A DNA stretch of 64,000 nucleotides from a bacterium. GTDB lineage: Bacteria; Actinomycetota; Acidimicrobiia; Spongiisociales; Spongiisociaceae. Positions 37,181-60,968 of this stretch are shown here, in pieces. The DNA is taken from assembly GCA_028821235.1 (NCBI GenBank), contig JAPPGV010000081.1, positions 1 through 64,000 on the forward strand, read 5' to 3'. The stretch's first letter is position 1. Each line of letters opens with the position of its first letter. Made by a program: the position numbers and the translations under genes. A model generated the notes under the pieces. It saw only the letters and a list, made by a program, of their open reading frames with translations, did not search any database and was not told the origin of the DNA.

Positions 37181-37295
37181 CGCCATGTTACGGCTCCGGC
37201 CCCGCGGATCGCTCAGCGGGTAGCATGCGGCACCGTGCCCGACCTCCGAGCAGCCGCCCAGCACCTGTACCCGGACCTGGTCGACCTGCGCCGAA
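37181..37295 (+). repeat. Promoter and 5' gene segment duplicated at 50381-50495
   Basis: These 115 bp, covering the promoter and first 20 codons of the M20 gene, recur at 50381-50495 with four mismatches by direct comparison and no gaps. This copy is the intact parent because the gene continues. Confidence 0.85.
37221..37226 (+). promoter_or_regulatory. -10 hexamer TAGCAT of the M20 gene
   Basis: TAGCAT lies 8 nt before the GTG start at 37235 with no ribosome-binding site, as expected for a leaderless transcript. The same hexamer and spacing are kept in the duplicate at 50421. Confidence 0.42.
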
Positions 37296-38431
37296 TGCTC
37301 CACCGATTCCCCGAGCGAGGCAACCACCTCCCCGAGACCCGCCGGATCGTGCTCGAAGCACTCGAAGGCCTACCCCTCGACATCGTGGCGCACCAGACCA
37401 CCAGCGGGATCGTGGCGGTACTGGAGGGTGACCACCCCGGCCCGGTCACCCTGCTCCGGGCCGACATGGACGCCCTCCCGGTGACGGAAGAGACCGGCCT
37501 GGAGTTCGCCAGCCTCCACGACGGGTTCATGCACGCCTGCGGGCACGATCTGCACACCGCCATGCTGGTCGGGGCGGCCCGGGTGCTGTCCTCCATGAAG
37601 TCCGACCTGGCAGGCACGGTGCTGTTCATGTTCCAGCCCGGCGAGGAAGGCTTCGCCGGGGCGCGGTTCATGCTCGAGGAGGGTCTGCTCGACACGGCGG
37701 AAGACCGGCCCTCGGGCGCCTTCGCCATCCACGTCAACACCTGGACCCGCACCGGCATGGTGCTCCACCGCAAGGGCCCGCAACTCGCTTCGGACGACGA
37801 GGTCCGGGTCACGATCCGGGGCAAGGGAGGCCACGCCTCCGCCCCCCACCTCTCCTACGATCCGATTCCGGTGGCCGCGGAGATCGTCCTCGCCACGCAG
37901 ACCGCCATCACCCGCCGGATCAACGTCTTCGATCCGGGCGTGATCACCTTTGCCACCGTCGACGCCGGGACCACCCACAACGTGATCCCCGAGACCGCCC
38001 TGCTGGTCGGAACGATCCGAGCCGTCTCCGACAGCACCCGCCTCCAACTTCACGCCCTGATCGAACGGGTGGCCCCGAACATCGCCGCGGCCCACGGCGT
38101 GGAGGCCGAGGTCGAGATCGACCTGGGATATCCCGTAACCGTCAACGACCCCGACCACACCACCTGGGTGGACACCGTGGCCCGGAACACGTTGGGCGAC
38201 GACCACGTGGTATGGATGGATTCGCCGTTCATGGGCGCCGAGGACTGGGGATTCGTGCTGCAGGAGGTACCCGGGACCATGTCGTTCCTCGGGGCGTGCC
38301 CTCCCCAGCTGGAACCGGGCCGGGCAGCCGGCCTCCACTCCAACCGGGCCGTGTTCGACGAGGAGGCGATGATCAGCGGCACGGCTCTGCACGCCGCAGT
38401 GGCCCTCTCGCGCGCGATGAGCGAGGAGTAG
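37235..38431 (+). CDS. M20 family amidohydrolase (N-acyl amino acid / hippurate hydrolase-like)
   Basis: A 398-residue dinuclear-metal hydrolase. Visible motifs are LRADMDALPV (metal Asp), HACGHDLHTAML (metal Cys/His region), FQPGEEGFAGARFM (catalytic Glu), the lid dimerisation domain about residues 185-300, and the closing MGAEDWGF with a metal ligand before the C-terminal helix. The group hydrolyses N-acyl amino acids, IAA-amino acids or carbamoyl derivatives. The GTG at 37235 is chosen because it follows a -10 hexamer and starts the first helix of the family; the open frame upstream overlaps the divergent gene. Confidence 0.88.
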   Translation: MPDLRAAAQHLYPDLVDLRRMLHRFPERGNHLPETRRIVLEALEGLPLDIVAHQTTSGIVAVLEGDHPGPVTLLRADMDALPVTEETGLEFASLHDGFMHACGHDLHTAMLVGAARVLSSMKSDLAGTVLFMFQPGEEGFAGARFMLEEGLLDTAEDRPSGAFAIHVNTWTRTGMVLHRKGPQLASDDEVRVTIRGKGGHASAPHLSYDPIPVAAEIVLATQTAITRRINVFDPGVITFATVDAGTTHNVIPETALLVGTIRAVSDSTRLQLHALIERVAPNIAAAHGVEAEVEIDLGYPVTVNDPDHTTWVDTVARNTLGDDHVVWMDSPFMGAEDWGFVLQEVPGTMSFLGACPPQLEPGRAAGLHSNRAVFDEEAMISGTALHAAVALSRAMSEE

Positions 38432-38608
38432 GAGACAACGCCGCTGAACCGGCGCGGCGTAGCAGTACATGCCGCGGTCGGGACGGCTTCAAGTGGCAGG
38501 ACGTTTCCCTCCCGGCTCTACACTCTCGCGGGTGAACAGCCCCACGTACACATTGCGCTACCGGACGTCGGAAAGAGTCTTGAAGCCGACCAGTAGAGAA
38601 CGGGATTG

Positions 38609-39469
38609 ATGGTTCGCTTCCGTCCGAAGAGAGCTCCGAAGCCCGCAACGGACGGCACCGACCCGTCCGGTGACGGTCGGGCAGGGCATCCGGCCGTGCT
38701 CGTAGACGGCGTCACCAAGATCTACAACGAGGATACGCCTCAGGCGCTCCTGGCGCTGGATGACATCAGCATGCGCGTCGACCAAGGCGAGGTGGTGGCC
38801 CTCCTGGGGCCGAGCGGTTGCGGCAAGAGCACCCTGCTGAAGATGATCGGCGGCCTCTACCCGGCCACCGGCGGGCGGATCCTCGTCGACGGTGTTCCGG
38901 TGACCGAGCCGGGCGAACTCACCGGCATGATGTTCCAGAAGCCCGTCCTGTTCCCGTGGCTCAAGGTGGTCGACAACGTGCTGTTGCCCGTGCGCACCCA
39001 CGGCGCCAAGCGGTCGGAGTTCCTCGACCGGGCCAACGACCTGATCGCCCTGGCAGGACTCCAGGGCTTCGAGCAACGCTATCCGTGGGAACTGTCGGGT
39101 GGCATGCAGCAGCGGGTCGCGATCTGCCGGATGCTGATGGGCGAACCGAAGGTGCTCCTGCTCGACGAGCCGTTCGGGGCGCTGGACGAGATGACGCGCG
39201 AGTACATGGACCTGGAGCTCAGGCGCATCATCATCCAGCAGAATCGGAGCGCCCTGCTGGTCACCCACAACCCGCTCGAGGCCGCATTCATCGGCGACCG
39301 GGTGGTGGTGATGACACCGCGCCCGGGCAAGATCGCCGGGGAGGTGGCCGTCCCGCTGGGCAAGGACCGCTCGGAGGACCTGCTGGCTTCTGACGAGCTG
39401 AACGTGTACATCCGGGAAGCCCGTTCCCTGCTCGAGCTGGCCAAGGACAGCATGGGACGCCCCCTGTGA
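38609..39469 (+). CDS. ABC transporter ATP-binding protein (NitT/TauT-type)
   Basis: A 286-residue ATPase of the nitrate/taurine/sulfonate importer class. Walker A GPSGCGKST (about 71), Q-loop MFQKPVLFPW, signature LSGGMQQRVAIC, Walker B VLLLDEPFGALD and H-loop LLVTHNPLEA are all intact. Residues 1-30 are a poorly conserved, basic extension. It overlaps the permease gene by 4 bp and together with the lipoprotein at 40365 forms an importer; the neighbouring hydrolases suggest a nitrogen heterocycle or pyrimidine-like ligand. Confidence 0.9.
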   Translation: MVRFRPKRAPKPATDGTDPSGDGRAGHPAVLVDGVTKIYNEDTPQALLALDDISMRVDQGEVVALLGPSGCGKSTLLKMIGGLYPATGGRILVDGVPVTEPGELTGMMFQKPVLFPWLKVVDNVLLPVRTHGAKRSEFLDRANDLIALAGLQGFEQRYPWELSGGMQQRVAICRMLMGEPKVLLLDEPFGALDEMTREYMDLELRRIIIQQNRSALLVTHNPLEAAFIGDRVVVMTPRPGKIAGEVAVPLGKDRSEDLLASDELNVYIREARSLLELAKDSMGRPL

Positions 39470-40257
39470 GCGAGCGGGCCAAGTCGGCGTTGACGTTCCT
39501 GGCCTCCCTGGTGGTGATCCTGGGTGTCTGGGAGTACGTGTCGCGGAGCGGCGGGGTCAACCCGATCGTGGTGCCGGCGCCCTCCTCGATCATGGCGGCC
39601 ATCTGGTTCGTGATAACCAACCTGTTCAGCAACCTGGCCTACTGGAAGGACACCTGGATCACGCTGTACGAGATCGTGTTCGGGTTCCTGCTGGGTTCGG
39701 GAACGGCCATCGTGATCGGCTCTCTGGTCGCCGAGTTCGCCACCGCGCGCCGGATCGTGATCCCTTACACCATCGCCCTCAACTCGACGCCCAAGATCGC
39801 CATCGCCCCCCTGTTCGTGATCTGGTTCGGATTCGGGGCGATGCCGAAGATCCTCATCGCGGCGGTCATCTGCTTCTTCCCGGTGTTCGTCAACACGGTC
39901 ACCGGCCTGCAATCCACCGAGGAGGAGGAACTGGAGTTGATGGCGTCGATCCGGGCCTCCCGCTGGCAGACGTTCCTGCGGCTCAAGCTCCCCCGCTCCG
40001 CCCCGTTCGTGTTCGCCTCGCTCCGCACCGCCATGGCCTTCGCCGCGATCGGGGCGGTCATCGGCGAGTTCGCCGGCGCCCAGGACGGGCTGGGGTTCCA
40101 GATCGAGTTCGCGGCGGCACGGCTCGAGACCGCCCGGCTGTTCGCCTTCCTGTTCGTCGTGTCCGTCCTCGCCTACCTGCTCTACTCGCTGATCGCCTAC
40201 ACGGAGCGCAAGGTCATCTTCTGGTCGGCGACCACCAGGATGCAGCGCCTCCAGTAG
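39466..40257 (+). CDS. ABC transporter permease (NitT/TauT-type)
   Basis: A 263-residue inner-membrane permease with about six hydrophobic segments. The cytoplasmic EAA-like loop is present as ELELMASIRASRWQTFLRLKLPRSAPF (about 150-176), which contacts the ATPase. It starts with GTG overlapping the ATPase stop by 4 bp. Length and topology are standard for the BPD_transp_1 family. It is followed by a strong bidirectional hairpin terminator. Confidence 0.9.
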   Translation: MSERAKSALTFLASLVVILGVWEYVSRSGGVNPIVVPAPSSIMAAIWFVITNLFSNLAYWKDTWITLYEIVFGFLLGSGTAIVIGSLVAEFATARRIVIPYTIALNSTPKIAIAPLFVIWFGFGAMPKILIAAVICFFPVFVNTVTGLQSTEEEELELMASIRASRWQTFLRLKLPRSAPFVFASLRTAMAFAAIGAVIGEFAGAQDGLGFQIEFAAARLETARLFAFLFVVSVLAYLLYSLIAYTERKVIFWSATTRMQRLQ

Positions 40258-40313
40258 CGGTCCGGCCGGCCGAACCGTCCACGAATTCCTCCACGGTTCC
40301 GACCTGGGTAAGC

Positions 40314-40341
40314 GGAAGGGCCGCCGGATGGCGGCCCTTCC
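40314..40341. terminator. Bidirectional hairpin terminator between convergent transporter genes
   Basis: GGAAGGGCCGCC (40314-40325) and GGCGGCCCTTCC (40330-40341) form a perfect 12-bp stem with a GGAT loop. It lies between the permease stop at 40257 and the stop of the convergent substrate-binding protein gene at 40365, so it can end both transcripts. Confidence 0.75.
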
Positions 40342-40364
40342 GTGTGCTTCGGCTTGACGGCCGA

Positions 40365-41450
40365 TCAGGCCGACGTGGCGGCGTCCCGCTCCGCCTGCTT
40401 GTCGAAGTCGTTGATGGTGTCGATGAACTCGTTGGTGTACACCGACGTGGGATCGAAGCCATCGCCGAGGGTGCCCCGTGATGCCAGCAGGTCGATGTAG
40501 GCCGTCCACGAATCCGGACGGTTCCAACCCAGCCGGTTGCCGGAGTCCTCGTACGGCAGCTGCCGCTTGATGCTCTCCTCGATGGCCAGCTTGTCGAACC
40601 CTTCGGGATCGCCCACCTGATCGGGGCGGGAGGCGGCGATCGCGTCCAGGCCGGCTCTCGGATCGGCGTGGGTGTACTCCGCCGCCCGGGCGATCGGCCG
40701 CAGCAAGCACTCGACAAGGCCGGGATCGCTATCGATGAGCTCTTGCTGGACCACGATGCTGGCGCCGTTGAGCAACCCGAACTCGCCCAGATCGAACTCG
40801 TTCAGGTCAACTTCGAAGCCCAACTCGATCACGTTGAAGTAGTCGGAGAAGTAGGCCACGATCCGGTCGCTGTCGAAGGCGGCGGCCGTTGTCCCGCCGG
40901 CCCCGGTCTCGATGATCTCCACATCCGCCTCCGGGTCGATGCCGGCGGCCGCCAGCATGCTCTCGAAGAACGGGACCTCGCCGGCGGTGGCCTCCGACAC
41001 ACCGAGGGTTTGACCGGCGAAAGACTCGATAGTGGTGAAGGACGATCCTGCGGGCGTCACCAGTGCGTAGATGAGCCGGTTCTGGAGTACGAAGACCACC
41101 TTGAGGTCTTCGCCCAGAGCGACGGCGTCCACGATCGGGCCGGGGTCGGCCAGACCGAACTCCACATTGTTGGCCACCACCTGCTGAACCACCGACGCGC
41201 TGCCGTCGGCGAACTCGATGTTGACCGAGATGCCCTCTTCCTCGTAGTAGCCGAGCGACTCCGCTACGAAGATCGAGTAGAAGGGTACGGCGAACGGGAA
41301 GGGAAGGAGGAACGTTGTCTCACGCAACTCGCCGTCGACCGCGCAACCGGCGCCGGACGATTCGGCATCGTCCCCTTGGCAGGCGGCCGCTACGAGTGCG
41401 AGGCTCAGAAGCGCTGCCACCAGACCCGTCCGTCTCGAAATCCTTGTCAT
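40365..41450 (-). CDS. ABC transporter substrate-binding lipoprotein (NMT1/THI5-like)
   Basis: A 361-residue lipoprotein. The N-terminus MTRISRR...LALVAAACQGDD is a signal sequence with lipobox AAAC, so Cys is about residue 24. The mature part is an NMT1-type periplasmic-binding fold (AESLGYYEEEGISVNIEF, FGLADPGPIVDAV, GQTLGVSEAT). Members bind nitrate, sulfonates, or thiamine and pyrimidine precursors. The ATG at 41450 has GGAGGGTGG upstream; the longer frame of 76 extra codons lacks a signal. Unusually, it faces the ATPase/permease operon rather than belonging to it. CGGGACGTCCCG at 41515-41526 lies upstream and could be an operator. Confidence 0.88.
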   Translation of the reverse strand: MTRISRRTGLVAALLSLALVAAACQGDDAESSGAGCAVDGELRETTFLLPFPFAVPFYSIFVAESLGYYEEEGISVNIEFADGSASVVQQVVANNVEFGLADPGPIVDAVALGEDLKVVFVLQNRLIYALVTPAGSSFTTIESFAGQTLGVSEATAGEVPFFESMLAAAGIDPEADVEIIETGAGGTTAAAFDSDRIVAYFSDYFNVIELGFEVDLNEFDLGEFGLLNGASIVVQQELIDSDPGLVECLLRPIARAAEYTHADPRAGLDAIAASRPDQVGDPEGFDKLAIEESIKRQLPYEDSGNRLGWNRPDSWTAYIDLLASRGTLGDGFDPTSVYTNEFIDTINDFDKQAERDAATSA

Positions 41451-41591
41451 ATACCACCCTCCCTGGGTCGGCGATCGGTGTATCGGTCCCCGAAGCGTAC
41501 ACCGCTCAACGGAACGGGACGTCCCGGGTTTGATCCACCCGGACGATCTTCGGGAATGAGGATCGGGGCTAACCTGCGAAGGGTCGCCGCT

Positions 41592-41694
41592 AGGAGGGTG
41601 CTGAAAAAGACGGGGATTGGTTGGCCCGCGATCTTGTGATCCGGGGGTTCGTCGCCGACCTGCGGGCCAACTGGACACTTTTCAGTACCCTCCT
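41592..41694. mobile_element. MITE-like fold-back element, copy 2
   Basis: A 103-bp element with terminal inverted repeats AGGAGGGTGCTGAAAA (41592-41607) and TTTTCAGTACCCTCCT (41679-41694), matching at 15 of 16 positions. Inside is a second pair, GTTGGCCCGC and GCGGGCCAAC, so the single strand folds into one long hairpin. There is no open reading frame. It makes up most of the 317-bp gap between the lipoprotein and RidA genes and is related to the element at 18192. Confidence 0.6.
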
Positions 41695-41767
41695 CGATCG
41701 CGGGCGCCGCCCGGTCGGCGAATCCTCGCCCCCCGAACGGTGGCCGGATGCGAAAGAGGAGGTCTAA

Positions 41768-42169
41768 GTGGGCCGGAAGGCGATCAACAGCCCTAATTAC
41801 CACGTTCCTATCGACGGCTTCGCCCAGATCATCGCCGCGGAGCCGGACAGTTCGACCCTGTACGTGAGCGGGCTGACCTCCCGGACCGCTGACGGAACGA
41901 TCGTGGGCGTCGACGACATGGCGGCCCAGGCGCGCCAGGTGCTGGTGAACATGGCCAACGTACTGGATTCCGCCGGCGCCACCATGGACGACGTGGTCCA
42001 GATCCGGACCTACGTCACGGACATCACGCTATGGGGCGTGATCGAGCCCGTGTGGCGCGAGCGCTGGGGCGACGTGTGGCCGGCCTCCACGCTGGTGCAG
42101 ATCGAGCGCCTGTTCGACCCCAGGCAGATGATCGAGATGGAGGCGATCGCCCGAATCGGGGGTTCGTGA
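41768..42169 (+). CDS. RidA family (YjgF/YER057c) protein
   Basis: A 133-residue protein with the RidA fold (SGLTSRTADGTIVG, DDVVQIRTYVTD). The last motif contains the conserved Arg that in active members deaminates imine intermediates. RidA proteins detoxify or process enamines and imines released by PLP and pyrimidine-degrading enzymes. It starts with GTG after an AGAGGAGG site. It is the first gene of the Mo-hydroxylase operon, with 20 bp to the next gene, fitting an aminoacrylate- or imine-hydrolysing step as in some pyrimidine routes. Confidence 0.9.
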   Translation: MGRKAINSPNYHVPIDGFAQIIAAEPDSSTLYVSGLTSRTADGTIVGVDDMAAQARQVLVNMANVLDSAGATMDDVVQIRTYVTDITLWGVIEPVWRERWGDVWPASTLVQIERLFDPRQMIEMEAIARIGGS

Positions 42170-42189
42170 TCCGTGCCCCGGAGTAGCCG

Positions 42190-43062
42190 GTGAGGCCGGC
42201 GCCTTTCAGATACTTCGCCCCGGACTCTCTGGAGGAGGCACTCTCGCTCCTGCGCGGGTACGGGGAGGAGGCCAAGATACTGGCCGGTGGTCAGAGCCTG
42301 TTGCCGCTGATGGCGTTCCGCCTGGTCAGACCGGCGGTCCTGATCGATCTACGTAACATCGCGGAACTCGGCCGCTACCGCCTTGACGGCAACCGGCTGA
42401 CAATCGGATCCATGGTCACCCATCGGGCCATCGAATTCGACGAGCGGCTGACATCCAGGTGTGACATGCTGGCGGAGGCCCTCGACGTCTTGGGCCACGC
42501 CGCCATCCGCAACGTCGGCACGGTCGGCGGGAGCCTTGCCCACGCCGATCCCGCGGCGGAGTGGCTCGCCGTCGCGCTGGCACTGGAAGCGCGAGTAATG
42601 GTCGCCGGACCCCGCGGCACTCGCAGCGTGGCGGCGGAGAACTTCGCCACCGGATGGATGGCCAGCTGCCTGGCTCCCGACGAGATACTGACCGAAGTGC
42701 GCCTGGACATGCCCGGACCGGGCACCGGTTCCGCATTCGAGGAGGTAGCCAGGCGCCACGGAGACTTCGCCGTGGTCGGCGCGGCGGCCGCGGTCACGGT
42801 GGCGGACGAGGCGATCGAGAGCGTCCGGATTGCCCTGGCCGGCGCCGCGTCCACGCCTATCCGCACCGCGCGGGCCGAAGCCCTCCTGGCCGGCAGCGTC
42901 CCGTCGGCCAAGGACCTGGAAGCAGCCGGCGAGGCGGCCGCCTCCGATACCGATCCGGTAGCCGATCTGCACGGGAGCGAGGACTACAAGCGGCACCTGG
43001 CCCGGGTGTTGACCCGCCGCGCCGTGGAGCGTGCCTATCGCCGGGCGCTGGAGCGGCCATGA
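42190..43062 (+). CDS. Molybdenum hydroxylase FAD-binding subunit (CoxM/XdhB-like)
   Basis: A 290-residue FAD subunit. The N-terminal ILAGGQSLLPLM is the first FAD-binding loop, with TVGGSLAHADPAAEW as the second and a C-terminal CO-dehydrogenase flavoprotein domain. It passes electrons from the iron-sulfur subunit to an acceptor. It starts with GTG; the stop codon overlaps the ATG of the small subunit gene by 4 bp. Gene order medium-small-large is typical of CO-dehydrogenase-like and xanthine-dehydrogenase-like operons. Confidence 0.93.
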   Translation: MRPAPFRYFAPDSLEEALSLLRGYGEEAKILAGGQSLLPLMAFRLVRPAVLIDLRNIAELGRYRLDGNRLTIGSMVTHRAIEFDERLTSRCDMLAEALDVLGHAAIRNVGTVGGSLAHADPAAEWLAVALALEARVMVAGPRGTRSVAAENFATGWMASCLAPDEILTEVRLDMPGPGTGSAFEEVARRHGDFAVVGAAAAVTVADEAIESVRIALAGAASTPIRTARAEALLAGSVPSAKDLEAAGEAAASDTDPVADLHGSEDYKRHLARVLTRRAVERAYRRALERP

Positions 43063-43544
43063 CCTTCGAGCTGCACACGATCCGCCTGACCGTCAATGGT
43101 GCCGCTGTGTCGGTTCAGGTGGAGTCGCGCCAGACTCTCGCCGGGGCACTGCGGGACCAGTTGGGCCTCACCGGGACCAATCTCGGGTGCGAGCACGGAG
43201 TGTGCGGAGCGTGCACGGTGCTCCTTGACGGCCGGACGGCCCGCTCATGTACGTTGCTGGCGGTCCAGGCTCAGGGCCGGTCGGTCACCACGGTGGAAGG
43301 TCTGGCCGCAGAGGGCGAGCGTCTGCATCCCGTCCAGCAGGCCTTCGCCGAGCACCATGCGCTCCAGTGCGGGTTCTGCACGCCGGGCTTCCTGCTGACC
43401 ACGATCGAGTACCTCGACGAGGCGCCCGCGAACGACTCCGAAGCCATCCGGCAACGGTTGTCAGGGAACCTGTGCCGATGTACCGGCTACCACAACATCG
43501 TCGCCGCCGTGAAGGACCTCGTCCGCCGCCAGGCCGCGCCATGA
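43059..43544 (+). CDS. Molybdenum hydroxylase [2Fe-2S] subunit (CoxS/XdhC-like)
   Basis: A 161-residue iron-sulfur subunit. The plant-type ferredoxin cluster is GCEHGVCGACTVLLDG followed by Cys in SCTLLA; the second cluster is QCGFCTPGF and LCRCTGYHNI. It carries electrons from the Mo cofactor to FAD. It is coupled to both neighbours by 4-bp overlaps (ATGA at each end). The many longer open frames across this region are shadows. Confidence 0.95.
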   Translation: MTFELHTIRLTVNGAAVSVQVESRQTLAGALRDQLGLTGTNLGCEHGVCGACTVLLDGRTARSCTLLAVQAQGRSVTTVEGLAAEGERLHPVQQAFAEHHALQCGFCTPGFLLTTIEYLDEAPANDSEAIRQRLSGNLCRCTGYHNIVAAVKDLVRRQAAP

Positions 43545-45889
43545 GGCAGGTCGGGAAGCCACTGGCCCGGCGCGAGGACGAACGGCTCCTCCGAGGGCAG
43601 AGCAGGTACCTGGCCGACCTGGCGTTCGGGGACCTGCTCGAGGCGATCGTCATCAGGAGTCCGTTCGCCAGGGCCCGTATCCTGTCGATCGACCCGACCG
43701 CCGCGCTCGCCGCCGACGGCGTGGTTGCGGTGTTCACCGCCGAGGATCTCGTGGACGTCGAGCCTGCTCTGACCCGCCAGTTCTACTCGCTAACGCCCGC
43801 CTTCGTGGAGCGTCACGACGTGTTCCTGGGGCCATACCGGGAGCCGATCCTCGCCTCCGGACGGGTGTCACGGGTGGGTGAGCCGGTGGCCCTCCTCGTA
43901 GCCACCGATCGCGCGACCGCCGAGGACGCCGCAGAACTGGTGGAGGTGGACTACGAGCCGATGGACCCGATCGTCGACCCGCTCGAAGCCATGGCACCCG
44001 GCGCCGATCCGGTAGCGTCCGACGTGCCCGGCAACGTCCAGGCGTCGTTCCGGATCAGGGCCGGTGATCCCGGTCGCGCCGCAGCAGCGGCCGATCGAAC
44101 GGTGAGCGGCCGATTCCGGATCGGCCGCTCGGTGGGATCACCCATCGAGAACCGGGGCGCGGTGGGCGTACCGGCCACCGGTTCCGAGCCGCTGACGGTC
44201 TGGTCCACCACCCAGATACCCCATCTCCTCCGCTCCTACCTGGCCGACTTCCTCCGGTGCGGCGAGGAGGATCTACGGGTGGTGGCGCCCGCCATGGGCG
44301 GGAGTTTCGGCGGGGGCATATATGCGGAGGAGCTACTGGTGGCGTTCGCCGCCCGAGCGCTGGAGGGGCCGGTCCGGTGGCTGGAGGACCGCCGCGAGAA
44401 CCTGGGCAACGCCCGCCACTCCCGCGACCAGATCATCGACGCCCGGCTGGCCTACGACCTCTCGGGGGGGTTCCGGGCCCTCCGCCTGCGCATCGTCCAG
44501 GACTGCGGCTCGGCCAACCTCTTCGGCCTGACCCTGCCGTTCAACATCGCCTCCCACGCCCGGGGCCAGTTCGCCATCGACCACTTCGATGCGGAAGGGC
44601 TGTGCGTCCTCACCAACAAGACCCGGAACACGCCGGTAAGGGGCGCCGGGCGCCCGGAGGCCACCTTCGTGCTCGATCGGCTGGTGGACATGGCCGCCGA
44701 CGACCTGGGTGTCGACCCGGCGGAATTGCGGCGGCGCAACCTGATCCCCGCCGGTGAGATGCCGCGGGACATGGGCATGCTGTATCGGGACGGAGCGCCC
44801 ATGGTGTACGACTCGGGCGACTTCCCGGACCAGCTCCGCACCGCGCTCGAAGCCTCCGGATACTGGGAGAAGCGCAGGTCGATCGGCGGAGCCGGTGAGG
44901 GCAACCGCGCCCGCGGCATCGGTATCTCGTCGCATGTGGAGGCCACCGGACTGGGTCCCCACGAGACCGCCCGCCTTGAGATCGACGACTCGGGCAGAGT
45001 GGTACTCACCTGCGGGTCCAACCCGCACGGCCAGAGCCATGCCACCACCCTGGCCCAGGTGGCAGGCGACGCCCTCGGTGTTCCCTATGACCGCATCGAG
45101 ACCCGTTTCGGGGACACCGGGCTCCTGGAGCGAGGGGGCGGCACGTTCGGAAGCCGGAGCGCCGTCACGGCAGGCTCGGTCGTCCACAGCGCGGCTATCG
45201 AGCTGCGGCGACAGATCCTCGAGCTGGCGGGCGAACTTCTCGAATGCGACCCGGCCGACCTCGACATCCGGGACGGCCTCGTGAGTCCCCGGGGCGTGCC
45301 CGGCATCGCGCTGGGGTTCCCCGAGTTGGCCGCCGCCCGCGACCGCAACGACGGTGACGGATCCAGGCTGAGTGCGCGTGACGAGTTCGTGCCCCCCACG
45401 GTCACCTTCGGATCGGGAACCCACGTCGCATCGGTGACCGTGGACCGGGAGACCGGTGTCGTCAGCCTGACCGGTTACGTGGTGGTGGACGACTGCGGCA
45501 CCGTGCTGAACCCGATGGTGGTGGACGGCCAGCAACACGGCGGGGTGGCCCATGGGATCGGAAACGCCCTCCTGGAGGAAGCGGTGTACGACGGGGATGG
45601 ACAACTCCTGTCGGGAACCTTCATCGACTACCTGCTCCCCACCGCCGCGGACGTCCCCGACATCGAGGTGATCCACCGGCCCCATCCCACCCCGCTCAAC
45701 ATTCTGGGCGTGAAGGGGGCCGGGGAGGGCTCGACCGCCTCCGCACCCGGCGCCATCGCCAACGCGATCGTGGACGCACTCCGACCGGTGCGGATCGAGA
45801 TCAACGAGCTACCGATCACCCCCCAGCGCCTGGTGGAGCTGATCCGGGCAGCAGAGGCCGGGCAGGTGGCCGGCCCGGCCGGAAATTAA
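43541..45889 (+). CDS. Molybdenum hydroxylase large subunit (xanthine dehydrogenase/CoxL family)
   Basis: A 782-residue molybdopterin-binding subunit. The aldehyde-oxidase a/b hammerhead domain is N-terminal (PLARREDERLLRGQ, about 5-115). Mo-cofactor regions include MGGSFGGG, RGAGRPEATFVLDR and the terminal KGAGEGSTASAPGAIANAI with the catalytic Glu. The AYxCSFR loop of true CO dehydrogenase is not present, so it is an XDH-type hydroxylase of an N-heterocycle or aldehyde rather than CO dehydrogenase. The following hydantoinase-type gene 39 bp downstream suggests hydroxylation followed by ring opening. Confidence 0.93.
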   Translation: MRQVGKPLARREDERLLRGQSRYLADLAFGDLLEAIVIRSPFARARILSIDPTAALAADGVVAVFTAEDLVDVEPALTRQFYSLTPAFVERHDVFLGPYREPILASGRVSRVGEPVALLVATDRATAEDAAELVEVDYEPMDPIVDPLEAMAPGADPVASDVPGNVQASFRIRAGDPGRAAAAADRTVSGRFRIGRSVGSPIENRGAVGVPATGSEPLTVWSTTQIPHLLRSYLADFLRCGEEDLRVVAPAMGGSFGGGIYAEELLVAFAARALEGPVRWLEDRRENLGNARHSRDQIIDARLAYDLSGGFRALRLRIVQDCGSANLFGLTLPFNIASHARGQFAIDHFDAEGLCVLTNKTRNTPVRGAGRPEATFVLDRLVDMAADDLGVDPAELRRRNLIPAGEMPRDMGMLYRDGAPMVYDSGDFPDQLRTALEASGYWEKRRSIGGAGEGNRARGIGISSHVEATGLGPHETARLEIDDSGRVVLTCGSNPHGQSHATTLAQVAGDALGVPYDRIETRFGDTGLLERGGGTFGSRSAVTAGSVVHSAAIELRRQILELAGELLECDPADLDIRDGLVSPRGVPGIALGFPELAAARDRNDGDGSRLSARDEFVPPTVTFGSGTHVASVTVDRETGVVSLTGYVVVDDCGTVLNPMVVDGQQHGGVAHGIGNALLEEAVYDGDGQLLSGTFIDYLLPTAADVPDIEVIHRPHPTPLNILGVKGAGEGSTASAPGAIANAIVDALRPVRIEINELPITPQRLVELIRAAEAGQVAGPAGN

Positions 45890-45928
45890 GGTGGGAGCAC
45901 ATCCCGCCGGACCGTCAAGGAGCCCTGC

Positions 45929-47317
45929 ATGCCCGCATTCGATCTTGCCATCGTCGGTGGTTCCGTTTGGACCGCCCAGGGATTCACCGACCGGACGGAC
46001 ATCCTGGTCCGGGGCGAGCAGATCGCCGAGCTACGGCCGGCAGGGGCATCCCCGGTAGACGCGACGGAGGTCGTAGACGCTACTGACCGGCTGGTGATAC
46101 CGGGCTTTATCGACACCCACACCCACCAACGGGATCCCGGCTTCACCCACAAGGAAGACATCACCAGCGCCACCCGGGGAGCGGCGGCGGGCGGCGTGAC
46201 CACCACGGTCGGGATGCCCAACGTCAACCCGCCCACCACCACTCCGGAGCTCTACGGGGCCCTGATCGAGGACCAGTCCCGGCGGGCCGTGGTCGACTTC
46301 AACCACAACCCCTCCCCCACCAACGTGGAGGCGGTGGCCGAGATGGCGGCGATGGGAGCGCTCGGTTTCAAGGTCTTCATGGTGGTCGACGCCGCCCGCA
46401 GCTACCCGCACATGCCCGGCCTGGGCGTTCACAAGCACGACGATCTGGTTCGCATCATGGAAGCGGTGGGAGCGACCGGCCGACCACTGATGGTCCATCC
46501 CAACGACCAGGCCGTGCTGGGGATCATCGAACACGCCCACTTCGAGGCCGGCAAGATGGATCCCGAGTCGTACTCCAAGGCCGAGTGGATGTATGACGGG
46601 ATGGTCTGGAACAGCGGGGTGGCGACGCTGATCGAGCTCAACCGCGGGGTGGGTGGACCGCTGCACGTGCTCCACATGATGTCGGATCGGACCGTGGAGC
46701 TCATCCGCCGAGCCAAGGCCGACGGGCAGGACGTGACCTCCGAGGTCAACGCATTCGGGCTGTTCCACAGCGACTGGGACGAGATCGCTCCCATGGGTCC
46801 CCTGGCGATCGGGCGGTGCCTCAAGCCGGAGTGGCGGGCATCGCTATGGGAGGGGATCGCCGACGGCACCATCGACGTGCTCGGAACCGACCATGCCCCC
46901 CATACCCTGGAGGAGAAATCCACCGGCTGGGACAACATGTGGGCCACTCCCACCGGCACCCCGCAGCTCCAGCACTACCTGATGAAGCTGCTGGACTCCT
47001 CGCACCGGGGCCTCATCTCCCTCGACAACGTGGTGCGGATCGGTTCGCACAATCCGGCTCGACGCTTCGGCCTGTACCCGCGCAAGGGCACCATCGAGGT
47101 GGGATCGGACGCCGACCTGGTGGTGATCGACTACCACGCCGAGCACACGGTCACCCGGGACGAGGTGCTCTCGAAAGCCGGATACTCCGGGTACGAAGGC
47201 CAGACGCTCAAGGGAGTTCCGATCCTGACCACCGTGCGGGGCGCCATCGTGGCCCGCGACGGAGTGGTGACCGGGAAACCCGGATACGGGCAGTTCGTAG
47301 GTCCGGTCGCGTCCTGA
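45929..47317 (+). CDS. Dihydroorotase/allantoinase/hydantoinase-type amidohydrolase
   Basis: A 462-residue cyclic amidohydrolase. Motifs: DTHTHQRDPGFTHKED (HxH), LGFKVFMVV with a probable metal-bridging Lys, His in MVHPNDQ, His in LHVLHMMSD, and Asp in LGTDHAPHTLEEK. Overall it is closest in feel to the allantoinase/hydantoinase branch. An AAGGAG site precedes the ATG. It likely opens a ring made by the Mo hydroxylase encoded just upstream (purine, pyrimidine or hydantoin), in the same operon (39-bp gap). It differs from the homologue at 4034. Confidence 0.88.
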   Translation: MPAFDLAIVGGSVWTAQGFTDRTDILVRGEQIAELRPAGASPVDATEVVDATDRLVIPGFIDTHTHQRDPGFTHKEDITSATRGAAAGGVTTTVGMPNVNPPTTTPELYGALIEDQSRRAVVDFNHNPSPTNVEAVAEMAAMGALGFKVFMVVDAARSYPHMPGLGVHKHDDLVRIMEAVGATGRPLMVHPNDQAVLGIIEHAHFEAGKMDPESYSKAEWMYDGMVWNSGVATLIELNRGVGGPLHVLHMMSDRTVELIRRAKADGQDVTSEVNAFGLFHSDWDEIAPMGPLAIGRCLKPEWRASLWEGIADGTIDVLGTDHAPHTLEEKSTGWDNMWATPTGTPQLQHYLMKLLDSSHRGLISLDNVVRIGSHNPARRFGLYPRKGTIEVGSDADLVVIDYHAEHTVTRDEVLSKAGYSGYEGQTLKGVPILTTVRGAIVARDGVVTGKPGYGQFVGPVAS

Positions 47318-47325
47318 GGCTCCGC

Positions 47326-48399
47326 CTACGCGAAGTTGGGGGCCACCTCTTCCTGGAACCGCGTCCATTGCTCGATCAGATGATCCAGCGTGTGGTAGAT
47401 GAACTTCATCTCGAAGGCGGTGCAACCCGACTCGATGTAGCGGCCGATCTCCTCACTCACGTCATCAGGTGACCCGATCAGGGATGCCGCCCAGATGGCG
47501 TCGAGTGTGTCGGTGCGCTCCTCCGGCGACAGGTGATGGCCGGTGGTTCCTGCGTAGCCCTCTTCGAAGGCCAGCATGGTGGGCTCCGCCTCGGCCCTGG
47601 CCTGCTCCATGGTGTCGGCCAGGTACACCTGAATCTCGGTGCCGGCGGTGAACTTCTCGGGATCACGACCTCGAGCCTCCATGCGCCGATGGATGTCGGC
47701 GATGGCCGCCGGGAACTGGGGCGGGGTGATCCAGAATGACAGCCACCCGTCGGCATAGTCGGCGATCATCTCCAGCGACTTCTCCGCCGATCCGCCGATC
47801 CAGATGGGCGGGTACGGCTTCTGAACCGGCTTGGGATAAACCTCGGCATCCTCGAAGTTGGCGAACTCGCCGCGGAAGGTGGCCTTGTCCTGCGTCCAGA
47901 CCTCGCGCATGGCCTCGAATACCTCTCGGGTGTGACGAACCTTGCTGCCCCGCCAGATGCCCATCACCTCGAACTCGACGTTGTGGGTGCTCTTCGGGGC
48001 CCCCTGGCCGATCCCCAACTCGAGCCGGCCGTTGCTCAGGACATCGATGTTGGCGATCTGCTTGGCCGTTCCCAGCGCCTCCCGGTACGGCAGGCACAGG
48101 ACCGCCAGGCCGAGGCGGATGTTCTCCGTGATCCCGGCGATGTAGGCCAGGTTGGTCAACGACTCCATGAACAGAGGCTGGTAGTCGTCACGAGCAGCGG
48201 CTTCCCAGAAGGTCTCCCGGGAACCGCACGAGATATGCACCGAGTCGAGCAGTTGGTTCCACACGTAATAGTCATGGACCCAGAGGGTTTCGAAACCGAG
48301 GCGGTCGGCCTCCACCGACGAACGGTGGAGAGCGTCCACCCCTGACAAGGGACCTGCGCATGTGACTCGCACACCGAAATGCGGCTGCTTGGACGCCAT
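47326..48399 (-). CDS. LLM class F420/FMN-dependent oxidoreductase
   Basis: A 357-residue luciferase-like monooxygenase family TIM barrel. Typical features are LGFETLWVHDYYVWN near the N-terminus, IRLGLAVLCLPYREALGTAKQIANIDVLSNGRLELGIGQG and PYPPIWIGGSAEKSLEMIADYADGW. Members use F420 or FMNH2 to oxidise or reduce small organic molecules. The start MASKQPHFGV at 48399 is preferred; the longer frame has a non-conserved arm. It is convergent with the hydantoinase gene, 8 bp between stops, and perhaps is part of the same pathway, as in uracil-ring-opening by RutA-like enzymes, but that is inference. Confidence 0.86.
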   Translation of the reverse strand: MASKQPHFGVRVTCAGPLSGVDALHRSSVEADRLGFETLWVHDYYVWNQLLDSVHISCGSRETFWEAAARDDYQPLFMESLTNLAYIAGITENIRLGLAVLCLPYREALGTAKQIANIDVLSNGRLELGIGQGAPKSTHNVEFEVMGIWRGSKVRHTREVFEAMREVWTQDKATFRGEFANFEDAEVYPKPVQKPYPPIWIGGSAEKSLEMIADYADGWLSFWITPPQFPAAIADIHRRMEARGRDPEKFTAGTEIQVYLADTMEQARAEAEPTMLAFEEGYAGTTGHHLSPEERTDTLDAIWAASLIGSPDDVSEEIGRYIESGCTAFEMKFIYHTLDHLIEQWTRFQEEVAPNFA

Positions 48400-48617
48400 G
48401 GTTCTCCGATCTCGATTCTCTGGTGTGGACGTGAGAGGCGGCCACGGCCCGGCCACCCTCACCATGAGATTAGCCATGGTGTCCTGATCCGTTAGTCGGT
48501 GACACCCCGACGCGGGCCGGCCCGCCTTCGATCAAACAGGACCCCCGACTCGGACAACCGGAGAGACGGTCCAGAGTTAACCGTTACAGGAACGAACAGG
48601 TCAACACCCCACCCATG

Positions 48618-48695: not shown

Positions 48696-50012
48696 TCAGC
48701 TTCTCGCCCGGGCCGGTGCCCGCCTGTTGCGATTCTTGGATGCCGGCCGTTGGCGGTTGCTGCGCGGGTGACGAGACCGGCTCCTGCTGGTCGGACGTCC
48801 CGGACCTCCGTTTTGCCTCCTGCGGGCCGCGGGTTGCCGGCTCGGATCGACGGGAGCCCTGCGGGGTTTGCGACGGCGGACCCTCCCATCGAGCGGCTGG
48901 ATGGCGGTGAGGTCCACATCGGTGACCGGCTGCCGCAGTCCCAGCCGGCGTTGCATGTGTCGGAGATCTCCGACCTGATCGGGTGGGACGAGCGAGACCA
49001 CGATGCCGTCCTTGCCGGCTCGGGCGGTGCGGCCTGACCTGTGGAGGTAGGCCTTGTGATCGGCGGGAAGGTCGTAGTGGATGATGGCGCTGACATCCTC
49101 GACATGGATGCCTCGTGCGACGACATCGGTAGCGACCAGCGCCTGCACCCTTCCGGAAGCGAAATCCTTCAGCGCTCTGGTGCGCTGGTTCTGGTTCCGC
49201 CCGCCGTGGATCGCCGCGGTCAGGATGCCTGTCCGACTGAGTTGACGGGCTACCCGATCAGAGCCGCGGCGGGTTCGGCAGAAGACGATCGTGGGTCCCG
49301 CGGCATCGATCGTGCGGGCACTGACCTCGATACGGTTCGTCCTGTCCACATGCCAGAACACATGGTCCGCATCGACGACGTCGGGCGTCCCCTGTCCTAT
49401 TTCGTGCCGTACAGGGCGGTGCTGGTAGTCGCGGGTTAGTGAGGCGACTTCGCGGTCCAGCGTGGCGGAGAACAACATCGTCTGCCGCTTGGCCGCGGTC
49501 TGGTCGAGCAAGCGCCGGACAGCGGGGATGAACCCCATATCGGCCATGCGGTCGGCCTCGTCTATGACGATGATCTCGACCGCGGAGAGCTCGGCCACAC
49601 CTTGATGGATCAGGTCTTCGAGGCGCCCGGGGCACGCCACCAGTATGTCTACGCCGCTGCGGAGGGCCCTGACCTGGGGGCCGTAACCCACGCCGCCATA
49701 GACGACTGCCACGCGGACCTTCCCAGAGAAGGAACGAAGCTCGGTTGCTATCTGATCGGCGAGTTCGCGGGTAGGGGCCAGCACGAGCCCTTTGGGCCTG
49801 CGCGGTTCGGCACGGCCTACTCTGGCCACGAGGGGAATCCCGAAGGCCAGAGTCTTGCCCGAGCCGGTGGGAGCGCGACCGCACACGTCGCGGCCCCTAA
49901 TTGCGTCGGCCAGAGTGGCTGTCTGGATCTCGAACGGTCGGGTGATACCGCGCCGGGCAAGAGCCTGGCCTATGGGTTTGGGTACGCCCAGTTGGGCGAA
50001 TGTGGGGGGCAT
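48696..50012 (-). CDS. DEAD-box RNA helicase (RhlE-like)
   Basis: A 438-residue ATP-dependent RNA helicase. Motifs are present in order: Q-motif around FEIQTATLADAI, APTGSGKT, PTRELADQ, IDEADRM, SATL in FSATL, HGGRNQNQR, ATDVVARGIHV and HRSGRTARAG. Residues after about 370 form a basic Arg/Pro-rich tail typical of RNA-binding extensions in RhlE and CsdA relatives. It is probably a cold-inducible or ribosome-assembly helicase. The leader region to 50380 is long and gene-free, which is usual for such genes, but no specific RNA element is recognised. Confidence 0.92.
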   Translation of the reverse strand: MPPTFAQLGVPKPIGQALARRGITRPFEIQTATLADAIRGRDVCGRAPTGSGKTLAFGIPLVARVGRAEPRRPKGLVLAPTRELADQIATELRSFSGKVRVAVVYGGVGYGPQVRALRSGVDILVACPGRLEDLIHQGVAELSAVEIIVIDEADRMADMGFIPAVRRLLDQTAAKRQTMLFSATLDREVASLTRDYQHRPVRHEIGQGTPDVVDADHVFWHVDRTNRIEVSARTIDAAGPTIVFCRTRRGSDRVARQLSRTGILTAAIHGGRNQNQRTRALKDFASGRVQALVATDVVARGIHVEDVSAIIHYDLPADHKAYLHRSGRTARAGKDGIVVSLVPPDQVGDLRHMQRRLGLRQPVTDVDLTAIQPLDGRVRRRKPRRAPVDPSRQPAARRRQNGGPGRPTSRSRSRHPRSNRQRPASKNRNRRAPARARS

Positions 50013-50380
50013 TGGTCTCCTTGACCCGCGTGACGCGGGCTTCTCATGGGTTCGGTGGCGCCTCGATGCGGCGATGCCTCGATGGGGCGGTAAAGAAGAG
50101 CGGTCTTCTCAGGATTGGTTCACGATGACTGGAAGAACCAAGACCCGTCTGCGAACCCACCAACCGGCCTAGTAGCCGGATCGCGGACGAGGATACCACA
50201 TCTGGGAGCGCCGTCCCGACCGCGATGACCACCGGACGCGGGAGCATCGAGTTGCCTCGCTATTGGCGGAAGTGAATGTTGTGGCGACGTCACCCTCGCC
50301 CGGTCCTCGGCAGCGCGCCCTGCGCAACGCCTGACGAACGTGGGAGAGAGTGAACTCCATCCGTTCCTCGCCGGCCTGCC
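50013..50380. other. Intergenic stretch, probable helicase leader
   Basis: No gene is supported here. Reading from the helicase, the region could be its 5' leader. A small inverted repeat, AGAAGA-GCGG-TCTTCT (50094-50109), is the only structure I see. Short open frames in several phases have no coding character. Confidence 0.4.
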
Positions 50381-50495
50381 CGCCATGTTACGGCTCCGGC
50401 CCCCCGGATCGCGCAGCGGGTAGCATGCGGCACCGTGCGCGACCTCCGAGCAGCCGTCCAGCACCTGTACCCGGACCTGGTCGACCTGCGCCGAA
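50381..50495 (+). repeat. Duplicate of the M20 gene promoter and 5' end (copy of 37181-37295)
   Basis: 115 bp with 4 mismatches to 37181-37295 and exactly colinear, including the TAGCAT -10 hexamer (50421-50426) and GTG (50435). Flanking sequence to each side is unrelated, so only the promoter and about 20 codons were copied. It likely supplies the promoter for the dehydrogenase gene at 50583. Confidence 0.85.
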
Positions 50496-50572
50496 GGCTT
50501 CGCCGTGGCGCGTCAGATGGTGCTGGAATGGCCCTACGGCCGGTAGGTAGACCATCGAGTGCTTGGTCGTGA
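50435..50572 (+). pseudogene. Truncated 45-codon copy of M20 amidohydrolase N-terminus
   Basis: Starting at GTG 50435 the frame gives 20 codons nearly identical to the start of the M20 protein (DLRAAVQHLYPDLVDLRR), then 25 unrelated codons to a TGA at 50570-50572. Translation, if it occurs, would end 10 bp before the GTG of the alcohol dehydrogenase gene, so it could act as a leader peptide with coupled translation. More likely it is just a remnant of the duplication. Confidence 0.55.
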
Positions 50573-50582
50573 GGGGTAAGGC

Positions 50583-51584
50583 GTGAGGGCGGTCGTTGCC
50601 ACGGGGCCCGGAACGCTCGATACAGTGGATGTTCCCTGCCGGAGCGAGAAGGATACGGTGGCGGTCCGGCTCGAGCGGGCGGGGATTTGCGGGACCGACC
50701 TGAAGATCCTGGATGGCGCCATGCCCACCCGCTATCCCCGGATCCTCGGCCATGAGGTGGTGGGAACCGTAGAGCGGACCCCATCCGGAGCGCGGCTCTC
50801 TGCTGGAACCAGGGTGCTCGTGAATCCGAGCGTGAACTGCGACGCCTGCTACCTGTGCGAGAACGGCCAGACGCATCTCTGCCGCCGCGGTGGGCTGCTG
50901 GGGCGGGATTTCGACGGTGTGTTCGCGGAGACCATCGGGGTCCCGGAACGATTCCTCCATGCGGTGCCCGAAGAAATCGCCCTGGACGACACCGGACTCC
51001 TGCAGGTCCTGGGCACGGTCGTCCACTCCCAGGAGAGCGTCCCGGTCTCGTCAGAGACGCTGGCGGTGGTGGTCGGCCTGGGAGTGTCCGGTCTCCTGCA
51101 CCTCCAGTTGCTGAGAGCAAGAGGTGCGGGCCGTGTCATCGGAGTCACCCGGTCGCGACGGAAGCTGGATCTGGCCAGAAGTCTGGGCGCTCATGCCGTG
51201 GCCACCCCGGACGAGGCGGTCGCGGCGGTGACCGAGATATCAGATGGCAGGGGCGCCGATCTGGTGGTGGAGGCTGTGGGAACCGAGGCCACGGTTCTCC
51301 AGGCGATCGAGCTATGCGGGTACGGCGGCCATGTGGTCGTCTATGGCACGGTGACCGGTAGAGGGGGAAAGCTGCCGTTCTACCAGCTGTACCTCAAGGA
51401 GCTCACCTTGCATTTCCCGAGAGCCGCCCGGCCTGCCGACTACAACACCTCCATCCGCATGGCGGAGCAGGGCCGGATGGAACTCGCCCCGCTGATCACC
51501 GCCCGCTTCCCCTTGGAGCAAGCCTCCGCCGCCTTCGCCGCAGCCAGGAGCGGGAACCACCTCAAGGTCCTCCTGACGCGCTAG
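50583..51584 (+). CDS. Zinc-dependent alcohol dehydrogenase (MDR superfamily)
   Basis: A 333-residue medium-chain dehydrogenase. Catalytic zinc residues are Cys in GICGTDLK and His-Glu in GHEVVG; the structural zinc lobe is CDACYLCENGQTHLC. The NAD(P) site is in VVGLGVSGLLHLQLL. Such enzymes oxidise polyols, sugars or amino alcohols; threonine- or sorbitol-type dehydrogenases are close in feel. GAGGGG lies 7 bp before the GTG start. The gene sits right behind the duplicated M20 promoter segment, suggesting that its expression now depends on it. Downstream the next gene has its own TATGAT hexamer at 51688-51693. Confidence 0.88.
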   Translation: MRAVVATGPGTLDTVDVPCRSEKDTVAVRLERAGICGTDLKILDGAMPTRYPRILGHEVVGTVERTPSGARLSAGTRVLVNPSVNCDACYLCENGQTHLCRRGGLLGRDFDGVFAETIGVPERFLHAVPEEIALDDTGLLQVLGTVVHSQESVPVSSETLAVVVGLGVSGLLHLQLLRARGAGRVIGVTRSRRKLDLARSLGAHAVATPDEAVAAVTEISDGRGADLVVEAVGTEATVLQAIELCGYGGHVVVYGTVTGRGGKLPFYQLYLKELTLHFPRAARPADYNTSIRMAEQGRMELAPLITARFPLEQASAAFAAARSGNHLKVLLTR

Positions 51585-51720
51585 CTCCCTCACGGCCGGG
51601 CCGCTTGTCGACCAGGAACTCCCATGTCATGACACCGCGGGTCAAGCTGTCCCGCCCCTGCCAGGCGGTCTGCCGGGAGGTGATCGGTATGATCCCGACC
51701 AATCGACCAGAGAAGAGGAT

Positions 51721-52959
51721 ATGCGGGAGGCTTTCGGGGTCCTGAGCACGGACTGGAAGGAAGGCATCAACTGGGACGCGGTCCGCAAGTGGCGGTTGGC
51801 GCGGGCCCACGAGGCCATGAAGCGCCACGGCCTGGGCGCCATGCTCCTCTTCTACGACGAGAACATGCGCTACGTGTCGTCCACGCTCACCCCGGGGTGG
51901 AACCGCCTCAAGCCCGGACTCCGTTACGTGGTGCTGATAAGGGACCGGCCTCCGATCGTCTACGAGCAGGGTGACATCGGATTCCATCTGGAAGTACACA
52001 GTCCGTGGATCCCCAAGGAGAACATCCGGTACTCCTACGCCTGGATAAAGGGCGCGGTGGGCCCTGCCTCCACCCAGCAGGTCGACAAGTTCACTCGGTC
52101 CCTCATCAGCGATCTCGAGGCGGCCGGAGTCAAGGACGAGCCTCTGGGAGTCGACTTCATCGACATCAACCTGGTACAGGCCTTCGAGCGGCACGGGATC
52201 GAATGGACCGACGGAATGAGCCCGATGATGGAGGCCCGCGCCATCAAGAGCCCCGACGAGGTCAAGGCGTTCTCCATGGTGGGTTCGATCTGCGACTACA
52301 TCCACTACGAGATCACCAACTTCATCAAGCCGGGAATGACCGAGAACCAGGTGGCGGCATTCGGGTTCGAGAAGCTGTACTCCATTCCGGGCATGGAGGA
52401 CGTGGAAGACGTGATCGTGTCGTCCGGTCCCAATGCCTGGCCCAACTGGCGGAACTTCTCGGACCGGATGATCCGTCCCGGAGAACTGGTCATCGTCGAC
52501 CTCGCCGCCCTCACCTGGAACGGGTTCAAGAGTTGCGTGTACCGGACCTACTGCGTGGGGGGCAGGCCGACCGCCGAGATGCAGCGGGTCTACGACGAGG
52601 CTCACGGATGGCTCTGGGATTCCATCGAGGCCACGGGACCGGGTGTCACCACCGCAGACGTCGCCTCCAAGTGGCCGAGCGCGCAGGAGGCCTGGGGATA
52701 CGAGGAGGAAGACCAGGCTGCCGCCAACCTCTGGGGGCACGGGCTGGGCCTGGCCCAGTACGACCCACCGGTGATCTCACGCATCTGGTCGCTGGACCAT
52801 CCCGTCGAGATCCAACCGGGCATGACCTTCGCCCTGGAAACCCAGCACGGAAAGCTCCACGAGTTCGGCGTTCGTCTGGAGGAGATGCTCTACGTGACGG
52901 AGACCGGAATCGAGATGGTCTCCACCTACAAGTCTCACGAGATCATCGTCGTGGACTGA
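51721..52959 (+). CDS. M24 family (creatinase/Xaa-Pro-like) protein
   Basis: A 412-residue M24 protein starting with ATG after an AGAGAAGAGGA site. The catalytic domain keeps the first Asp (VIVDLAAL), His (GHGLGLAQYD), and both Glu (ALETQ, RLEEM), but the second metal Asp is replaced in KSCVYRTY. It is thus intermediate between true metallopeptidases and metal-free creatinase types. It resembles the protein at 55628 strongly in these motifs (SCVYRTY versus SCYYRTF, GHGLGL in both). It is followed 2 bp later by the PEP-utilising gene, with which it should be co-transcribed. Confidence 0.85.
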   Translation: MREAFGVLSTDWKEGINWDAVRKWRLARAHEAMKRHGLGAMLLFYDENMRYVSSTLTPGWNRLKPGLRYVVLIRDRPPIVYEQGDIGFHLEVHSPWIPKENIRYSYAWIKGAVGPASTQQVDKFTRSLISDLEAAGVKDEPLGVDFIDINLVQAFERHGIEWTDGMSPMMEARAIKSPDEVKAFSMVGSICDYIHYEITNFIKPGMTENQVAAFGFEKLYSIPGMEDVEDVIVSSGPNAWPNWRNFSDRMIRPGELVIVDLAALTWNGFKSCVYRTYCVGGRPTAEMQRVYDEAHGWLWDSIEATGPGVTTADVASKWPSAQEAWGYEEEDQAAANLWGHGLGLAQYDPPVISRIWSLDHPVEIQPGMTFALETQHGKLHEFGVRLEEMLYVTETGIEMVSTYKSHEIIVVD

Positions 52960-52961
52960 CC

Positions 52962-54653: not shown

Positions 54654-54756
54654 GCAGACGCCGCCGTTCGAGCGTGACCACCAACCGGTAGGCTGGAAAC
54701 CCGAGCCGGCAATCGCGCCGGCTAGCTCACCACACCGACCCGACGACGGGAGAAGG

Positions 54757-55647
54757 ATGCCGGCTATCGATGCGGTCCGTTCCATGCTCTTCGCCCCTGG
54801 GGACCGCCCGGATCTGATCATCAAGGCCGCGAGGTCGGACGCTGACGCGGTGATCGTCGACCTGGAGGATGCTGTGGCCGCCGGCGCCAAGGACGCCGCC
54901 CGCGCCAACCTCGCCGCCTGGCCCGGGCCCGACAGCGCCCTCCCCCACTTCGTTCGCATCAACGGCTTCGGCTCGGAGGCGATGTGGAAGGACCTGGTGG
55001 CCGCCGTAGAGGCAGGAGCCGAAGGCGTGATCATTCCAAAGGCCGCCAACAGGGAGGTCATGCTCAAGGCGTGCGGCGCCCTGAGCGGGCTGGAGGCAGC
55101 AGCCGGACGGCCTGAGGGCTCGATCACCCTCATACCGATGATCGAGACCGCGCAGGGAGTGCTGAACGCGGTCGAGATCCTGGATGGCTGCCGGCGCGTC
55201 CAGGCGGTCATGTTCGGTAGCGGCGAGCAGGGCGACCTGGTGGCCGATCTCGGAGTGGAGTGGGAACCGGCGGGAACGGGCCTGGCCTATGCCCGATCCC
55301 GCGTGCTCCTCGCCGCGAGAGCAGCCGGCATCCCGCATCCGATAGACGGCGTGTTCATGGACTACCGCGATCAGGAGGCGCTACGCACCGAGAGTCGGCT
55401 GGCCCGCCGCTCGGGGTACGTAGCCAAACTCGCCATCCATCCCGCTCAGGTGGAGGTGATCAACGAGGTCTTCACGCCCACTCCCGACGAGGTAGCCCGC
55501 CATCGTGCGGCCCTGGAGGCGTTCGACCGGGCCGAAGCAGAGGGGACGGGCTCGGTGGCCGTCGACGGCCGGATGGTGGATCGCGCAGTGGCCAGGACAG
55601 CCCGAGCAGTCCTAGCCCGGGCGCGCTCTAGTAGTCGATTACCGTGA
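54757..55647 (+). CDS. HpcH/HpaI aldolase/citrate lyase family protein (CitE-like)
   Basis: A 296-residue TIM-barrel lyase beginning MPAIDAVRSMLFAPGDRPDLI, typical of CitE and malyl-CoA lyase-like enzymes. Metal ligands are probably Glu in VDLEDAV and Glu in PMIETAQG plus Asp in the GEQGDLVADL segment (Mg2+ site). It would cleave or condense a 3-hydroxy(di)acid CoA ester. There is no CoA transferase beside it, so it may be a stand-alone thioesterase or lyase like CitE-like stand-alone proteins. A TAGGCT hexamer at 54689-54694 and a GGAGAAGG site precede the ATG. The end overlaps the convergent M24 gene by 20 bp. Confidence 0.85.
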   Translation: MPAIDAVRSMLFAPGDRPDLIIKAARSDADAVIVDLEDAVAAGAKDAARANLAAWPGPDSALPHFVRINGFGSEAMWKDLVAAVEAGAEGVIIPKAANREVMLKACGALSGLEAAAGRPEGSITLIPMIETAQGVLNAVEILDGCRRVQAVMFGSGEQGDLVADLGVEWEPAGTGLAYARSRVLLAARAAGIPHPIDGVFMDYRDQEALRTESRLARRSGYVAKLAIHPAQVEVINEVFTPTPDEVARHRAALEAFDRAEAEGTGSVAVDGRMVDRAVARTARAVLARARSSSRLP

Positions 55648-56899: not shown

Positions 56900-56922
56900 C
56901 GTGTCCCCTCCTTGCAGGTCGG

Positions 56923-58080: not shown

Positions 58081-58112
58081 GGTCTCCCTCCCCGTCCCAT
58101 CAAGCCTTGCAC

Positions 58113-60966: not shown

Positions 60967-60968
60967 CA

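Follow-up and report, generated by a model that had tools for sequence, protein, structure and literature searches.

Why does the start of an M20 amidohydrolase gene recur directly in front of an alcohol dehydrogenase (ADH) gene? The question arose in a window of 64,000 nucleotides from an uncultured actinobacterium of the class Acidimicrobiia, where the initial annotation had read the second copy as a promoter duplicated and placed before the ADH gene. A short repeat that resembles a copied promoter can also be the scar of a duplication followed by gene loss, and the gene order of relatives tells the two apart. We compared the window with the rest of its genome bin (3.6 Mb in 162 contigs, the window sitting on a contig of 179 kb) and with nine genomes of the same genus, the three named ones among them being Acidimicrobiia metagenome-assembled genomes. 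Features are listed in Table 1.

Table 1. Features around the two M20 5′ ends, numbered from the first base of the window.
Feature	Position	Strand	Basis or content
Copy 1: 5′ end of the intact M20 gene, with its upstream region, promoter, and first ~24 codons	37175..37305	+	Direct comparison, own-genome search
Putative −10 TAGCAT, copy 1	37221..37226	+	8 nt before the M20 GTG, leaderless-type
Intact M20 amidohydrolase gene, GTG start	37235..38431	+	PF01546, E 1.7e-38; TIGR01891 above cut-off
Cassette separating the intact M20 gene from the helicase gene	38558..48477		ABC transporter, RidA-like, molybdenum hydroxylase-like subunits, allantoinase/hydantoinase-like, LLM gene
DEAD-box helicase gene	48696..50012	-	PF00270, E 3.6e-45
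Conserved region upstream of the helicase gene, left flank of copy 2	50013..50377		~100% to G007, 93% to G005 and G006
Copy 2: 5′ stub of a second M20 gene (main reading)	50375..50505	+	Matches the M20 5′ end only
Putative −10 TAGCAT kept in the stub	50421..50426	+	Alignment of relatives
Chimeric ORF, 45 codons	50435..50572	+	~23 codons of M20, followed out of frame by the phosphatase tail and the leader
Phosphatase remnant (DSP/PTPase-like), last 11 codons and stop	50510..50546	+	Identity to G006
Zinc-dependent medium-chain dehydrogenase (ADH) gene	50583..51584	+	PF08240, PF00107

Two copies of one M20 5′ end

The repeat itself is real. Direct comparison of 37181–37295 with 50381–50495 gave mismatches at exactly four of 115 positions, and the ungapped match widens to the limits given in Table 1, with 93 per cent identity over 131 nt. 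The longest exact run common to both copies is 38 nt. When the genome was searched against itself, the second copy scored E = 4.7e-51, which is far beyond chance. As the initial annotation had claimed of its flanks, the sequences on either side of copy 1 are unrelated to those around copy 2. Its description of the copy as a −10 element plus twenty codons needs a correction in the second part: a putative −10 is present, and about 23–24 M20 codons are recognizable before the break in copy 2, near 50505. The start codon in both cases is GTG (at 37235 and 50435).

Across the whole bin there are two copies only, both of them M20 5′ ends, so the widespread short repeat that the initial annotation had named as a threat to its own reading did not turn up. 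Length alone would suit a short dispersed repeat element of the REP or MITE type; with two copies where such an element calls for many, and with each copy at the start of an M20 sequence, we rejected this explanation, the chance of which is next to nil. A mobile, plasmid- or phage-borne origin was also rejected, as we found no plasmid match and no exact match of the 22-nt core in viral contigs.

The initial annotation had proposed looking for the copy in related strains. A genome-collection scan for the ADH gene found no second strain of this species. In the relatives, the segment was found by DNA in eight of the nine genomes, where it sits at the 5′ end of a complete M20 gene; the ninth (G009) also has an M20 gene, and G001 holds one further match of 29 nt. 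The M20 orthologues of the nine relatives are 78–95 per cent identical.

Aligned with these sequences, the four differences within the 115-bp stretch divide into one change in copy 1, two in copy 2, and a fourth that is unassigned. Both of the copy 2 changes alter amino acids (P2R and A8V). Three bases near the break are common to the two copies and absent from all nine relatives, which suggests a duplication within this lineage, or gene conversion. Copy 1 is as distant from its counterpart in G003 as it is from copy 2, with seven differences in 96 for each pair.

The right flank holds the end of a phosphatase gene

Immediately beyond the break, the sequence from 50510 to 50582 is 100 per cent identical to G006:C19:2631–2703, where a complete phosphatase ORF of 217 aa ends and the ADH leader follows. 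The phosphatase is of the DSP/PTPase kind (PF22785/PF22784), and the gene order on this contig of G006 is SDR1, M20, phosphatase, and then the ADH orthologue. About 1.77 kb separates M20 codon ~23–24 from the last eleven phosphatase codons in G006, while in our genome no more than about 5 nt lie between the last recognizable M20 base and the phosphatase tail. The break joins parts of two genes that, judging from the relatives, would have stood apart in the ancestor. The stop of the resulting chimeric ORF sits 10 nt before the ADH start, and the ADH gene itself is 92–93 per cent identical in G003 and G006. In G001 M20 comes first and ADH last, with a partial phosphatase broken up by other sequence between them; the sequence upstream of ADH differs among G001, G003, and G006.

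This gene order bears on the copied promoter. On that account, a segment of about 130 bp from the M20 gene was duplicated alone and inserted before the ADH gene, bringing M20 regulation with it, and the copy does include the promoter and start codon, lies in the same orientation, and ends shortly past the start. However, the insertion must by chance have landed where relatives have M20, again in the same orientation, and directly beside the 3′ remainder of the gene that comes after M20 in those relatives. We saw neither a target-site duplication nor a mobile element. Promoter capture by duplication also calls for a site that lacks the promoter in relatives, whereas both G006 and G001 have M20, together with its promoter, upstream of ADH. 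We consider the copied promoter very improbable. What survives of the initial annotation's promoter capture by duplication is that M20 sequence was apparently duplicated, given the three derived bases common to the two copies; the copying of a promoter segment to ADH finds no support, since G006 has a whole M20 gene and phosphatase upstream of ADH.

The left flank also borders M20

In G005, G006, and G007, the helicase gene neighbours SDR1-M20. The match to the helicase-upstream region breaks off at an identical base in all three, with SDR1 following 40 bp on and then M20. Left-flank sequence, SDR1, and M20 all lie on one contig in G005 and G007; in G006, the helicase lies on a contig that ends inside SDR1, and SDR1-M20 on another that begins inside it. 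In our genome as assembled, the helicase-upstream region passes straight into M20 upstream sequence, without SDR1. Given this helicase side and the right flank in G006, both flanks of copy 2 border M20 territory in relatives. Two points count against the reading favoured below. With no SDR1 between the helicase region and the stub, it has to assume two deletions or more, and the stretch immediately before the stub's promoter resembles the amidohydrolase-M20 arrangement of G003 and G002, not that of G006.

The order in G003, pieced together across two contig ends that match the window at 47298 and 47332, is M20, cassette, LLM, ADH. There no helicase intervenes between the LLM gene and the phosphatase remnant and ADH that directly follow it, which makes the helicase and stub look like an added block. 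The helicase region with its attached M20 5′ fragment might, then, have moved as one unit into a phosphatase gene that was already eroded. Such a move needs a separate break in M20 and erosion of the phosphatase, both ending at the same point, and G003 and our genome retain opposite ends of the phosphatase. We regard it as unlikely.

The contig itself could also be at fault, joining different strains in the metagenome assembly so that the stub and the intact gene were never in one cell. Two tracts, 24948–26447 and 49193–50377, are 99.5–100 per cent identical to G007, another species of the genus, and their neighbours mostly 88–95 per cent; the second tract runs up to the left junction, and such identical tracts permit strain switching during assembly. 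The contamination estimate for the bin is 4.99 per cent. Against this, an assembly error through the repeat is unlikely because the copies share at most 38 exact bases, too few to confuse an assembler at usual word sizes. The right junction is tied to real sequence of a relative, both copies carry the same derived bases, and even in a chimera copy 2 would still be an M20 stub in some strain. A chimera is decidedly unlikely overall, and recent recombination is the simplest cause of the G007-identical tracts.

Variable gene blocks around the locus

Other parts of the neighbourhood vary as well. The ten-kb cassette, whose gene names come mostly from sequence resemblance (the LLM gene by PF00296), lies downstream of M20 here and in G003 and upstream of SDR1 in G004, and it appears to be a movable gene block. 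ADH and the genes downstream of it, from 50583 to 64000 and on to about 74000 (about 20 kb), form an accessory block that is present in G003 and G006 (95–97 per cent) and absent from G005 and G007. In G003 (L059, G003:C98), about 51 nt of the phosphatase 5′ end remain at 80 per cent identity, followed by the ADH leader. The decay of the phosphatase there appears to be independent of its decay in our genome.

A second M20 gene probably reduced to its 5′ end

The reading that best accommodates these observations, with a probability that we put at roughly 0.8, is that a second M20 gene, once complete, stood before the phosphatase and ADH genes and that its body was deleted, leaving copy 2 as its 5′ end. 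Only part of the intact gene is homologous to the stub, and relatives keep an intact gene at the same place. From the homologies, gene orders, and junction positions we infer the following order of events. M20-bearing sequence would have been duplicated in this lineage, giving an intermediate with two complete M20 genes. One deletion would have brought the start of the second M20 gene up against the helicase upstream region. Another, of about 1.8 kb when scaled on G006, would have taken that gene from codon ~24 on, together with all of the phosphatase but its last eleven codons, and left an out-of-frame join. Copy 1 would have stayed as the working M20 gene, and the old M20 promoter would have been left about 150 bp upstream of ADH, with the 45-codon chimeric ORF between them. 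Tandem duplication of the region or recombination with another strain, each with subsequent deletions, yields the observed order.

A probable leftover promoter upstream of ADH

TAnCAT, exactly 8 nt, and a GTG or ATG start codon were found at all eleven M20 5′ ends, the stub included, in ten of ten genomes. Sequence further upstream of TAnCAT differs between arrangements. In mycobacteria, promoters carry an ANNNT motif, commonly TANNNT, at −6 to −13, and roughly one transcript in four is leaderless (PMC6448022). The M20 5′ ends have what is expected of leaderless genes, namely a TANNNT −10 at a fixed short distance from the start codon. Because this spacing is kept in every M20 5′ end and fits the mycobacterial pattern, the stub probably still carries a promoter. 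To this extent the promoter content ascribed to the copy by the initial annotation is borne out, as the putative TAGCAT is present in the stub. A consensus scan found no standard sigma-70 promoter or terminator in 50340–50620, though such a scan is uninformative for GC-rich actinobacteria.

With this probable promoter so close upstream, and only the chimeric ORF in between, ADH may be read from it as a by-product of the deletion. Any such effect on expression is one that we infer from position. If ADH does use the stub promoter, then the deletion drew ADH closer, and no promoter was copied to ADH. One could go further and propose that selection favoured losing the second M20 gene and the phosphatase because ADH thereby came under the M20 promoter, that translation of the leaderless chimeric ORF is coupled to that of ADH, and that the locus, rebuilt differently in each relative, is a hotspot of promoter rewiring by deletion. 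We consider this extension speculative and rather unlikely.

Discussion

Several known systems resemble this locus in part. Work on deletion-born gene fusions describes promoter capture that is localized around deletions, and one of its fusions involves an out-of-frame fragment; those fusions were detected between isolates of known species, and one was shown to be expressed (PMC12803068). As in those cases, a deletion here would join the start of one gene to the end of a distant one and could alter local transcription. Unlike them, our case is deduced from relatives of other species, involves a duplicated gene, and is known from sequence alone. It is also like a truncated pseudogene after gene duplication, in which a redundant copy is lost by deletion and a short 5′ end is left, but unlike the usual pseudogene the remnant probably keeps a promoter and faces an intact gene downstream. 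In gene activation by tandem duplication, it is the duplication that switches the gene on and that is selected for (PMC11111574). ADH may likewise have come under new transcription after a rearrangement, which in our case is a prediction, but the juxtaposition would be by deletion, and selection is not part of the case. Last, the genus-wide arrangement of TAGCAT, 8 nt, and GTG resembles leaderless actinobacterial promoters (PMC6448022) and is consistent with transcription starting at the start codon.

Under the duplication and deletion favoured here, then, the stub is a gene remnant of an ordinary kind, situated where the genome of this Acidimicrobiia bacterium is variable. If ADH is expressed from the leftover promoter, the locus would be a naturally occurring example, from an uncultured group of actinobacteria, of a deletion that changed gene regulation.
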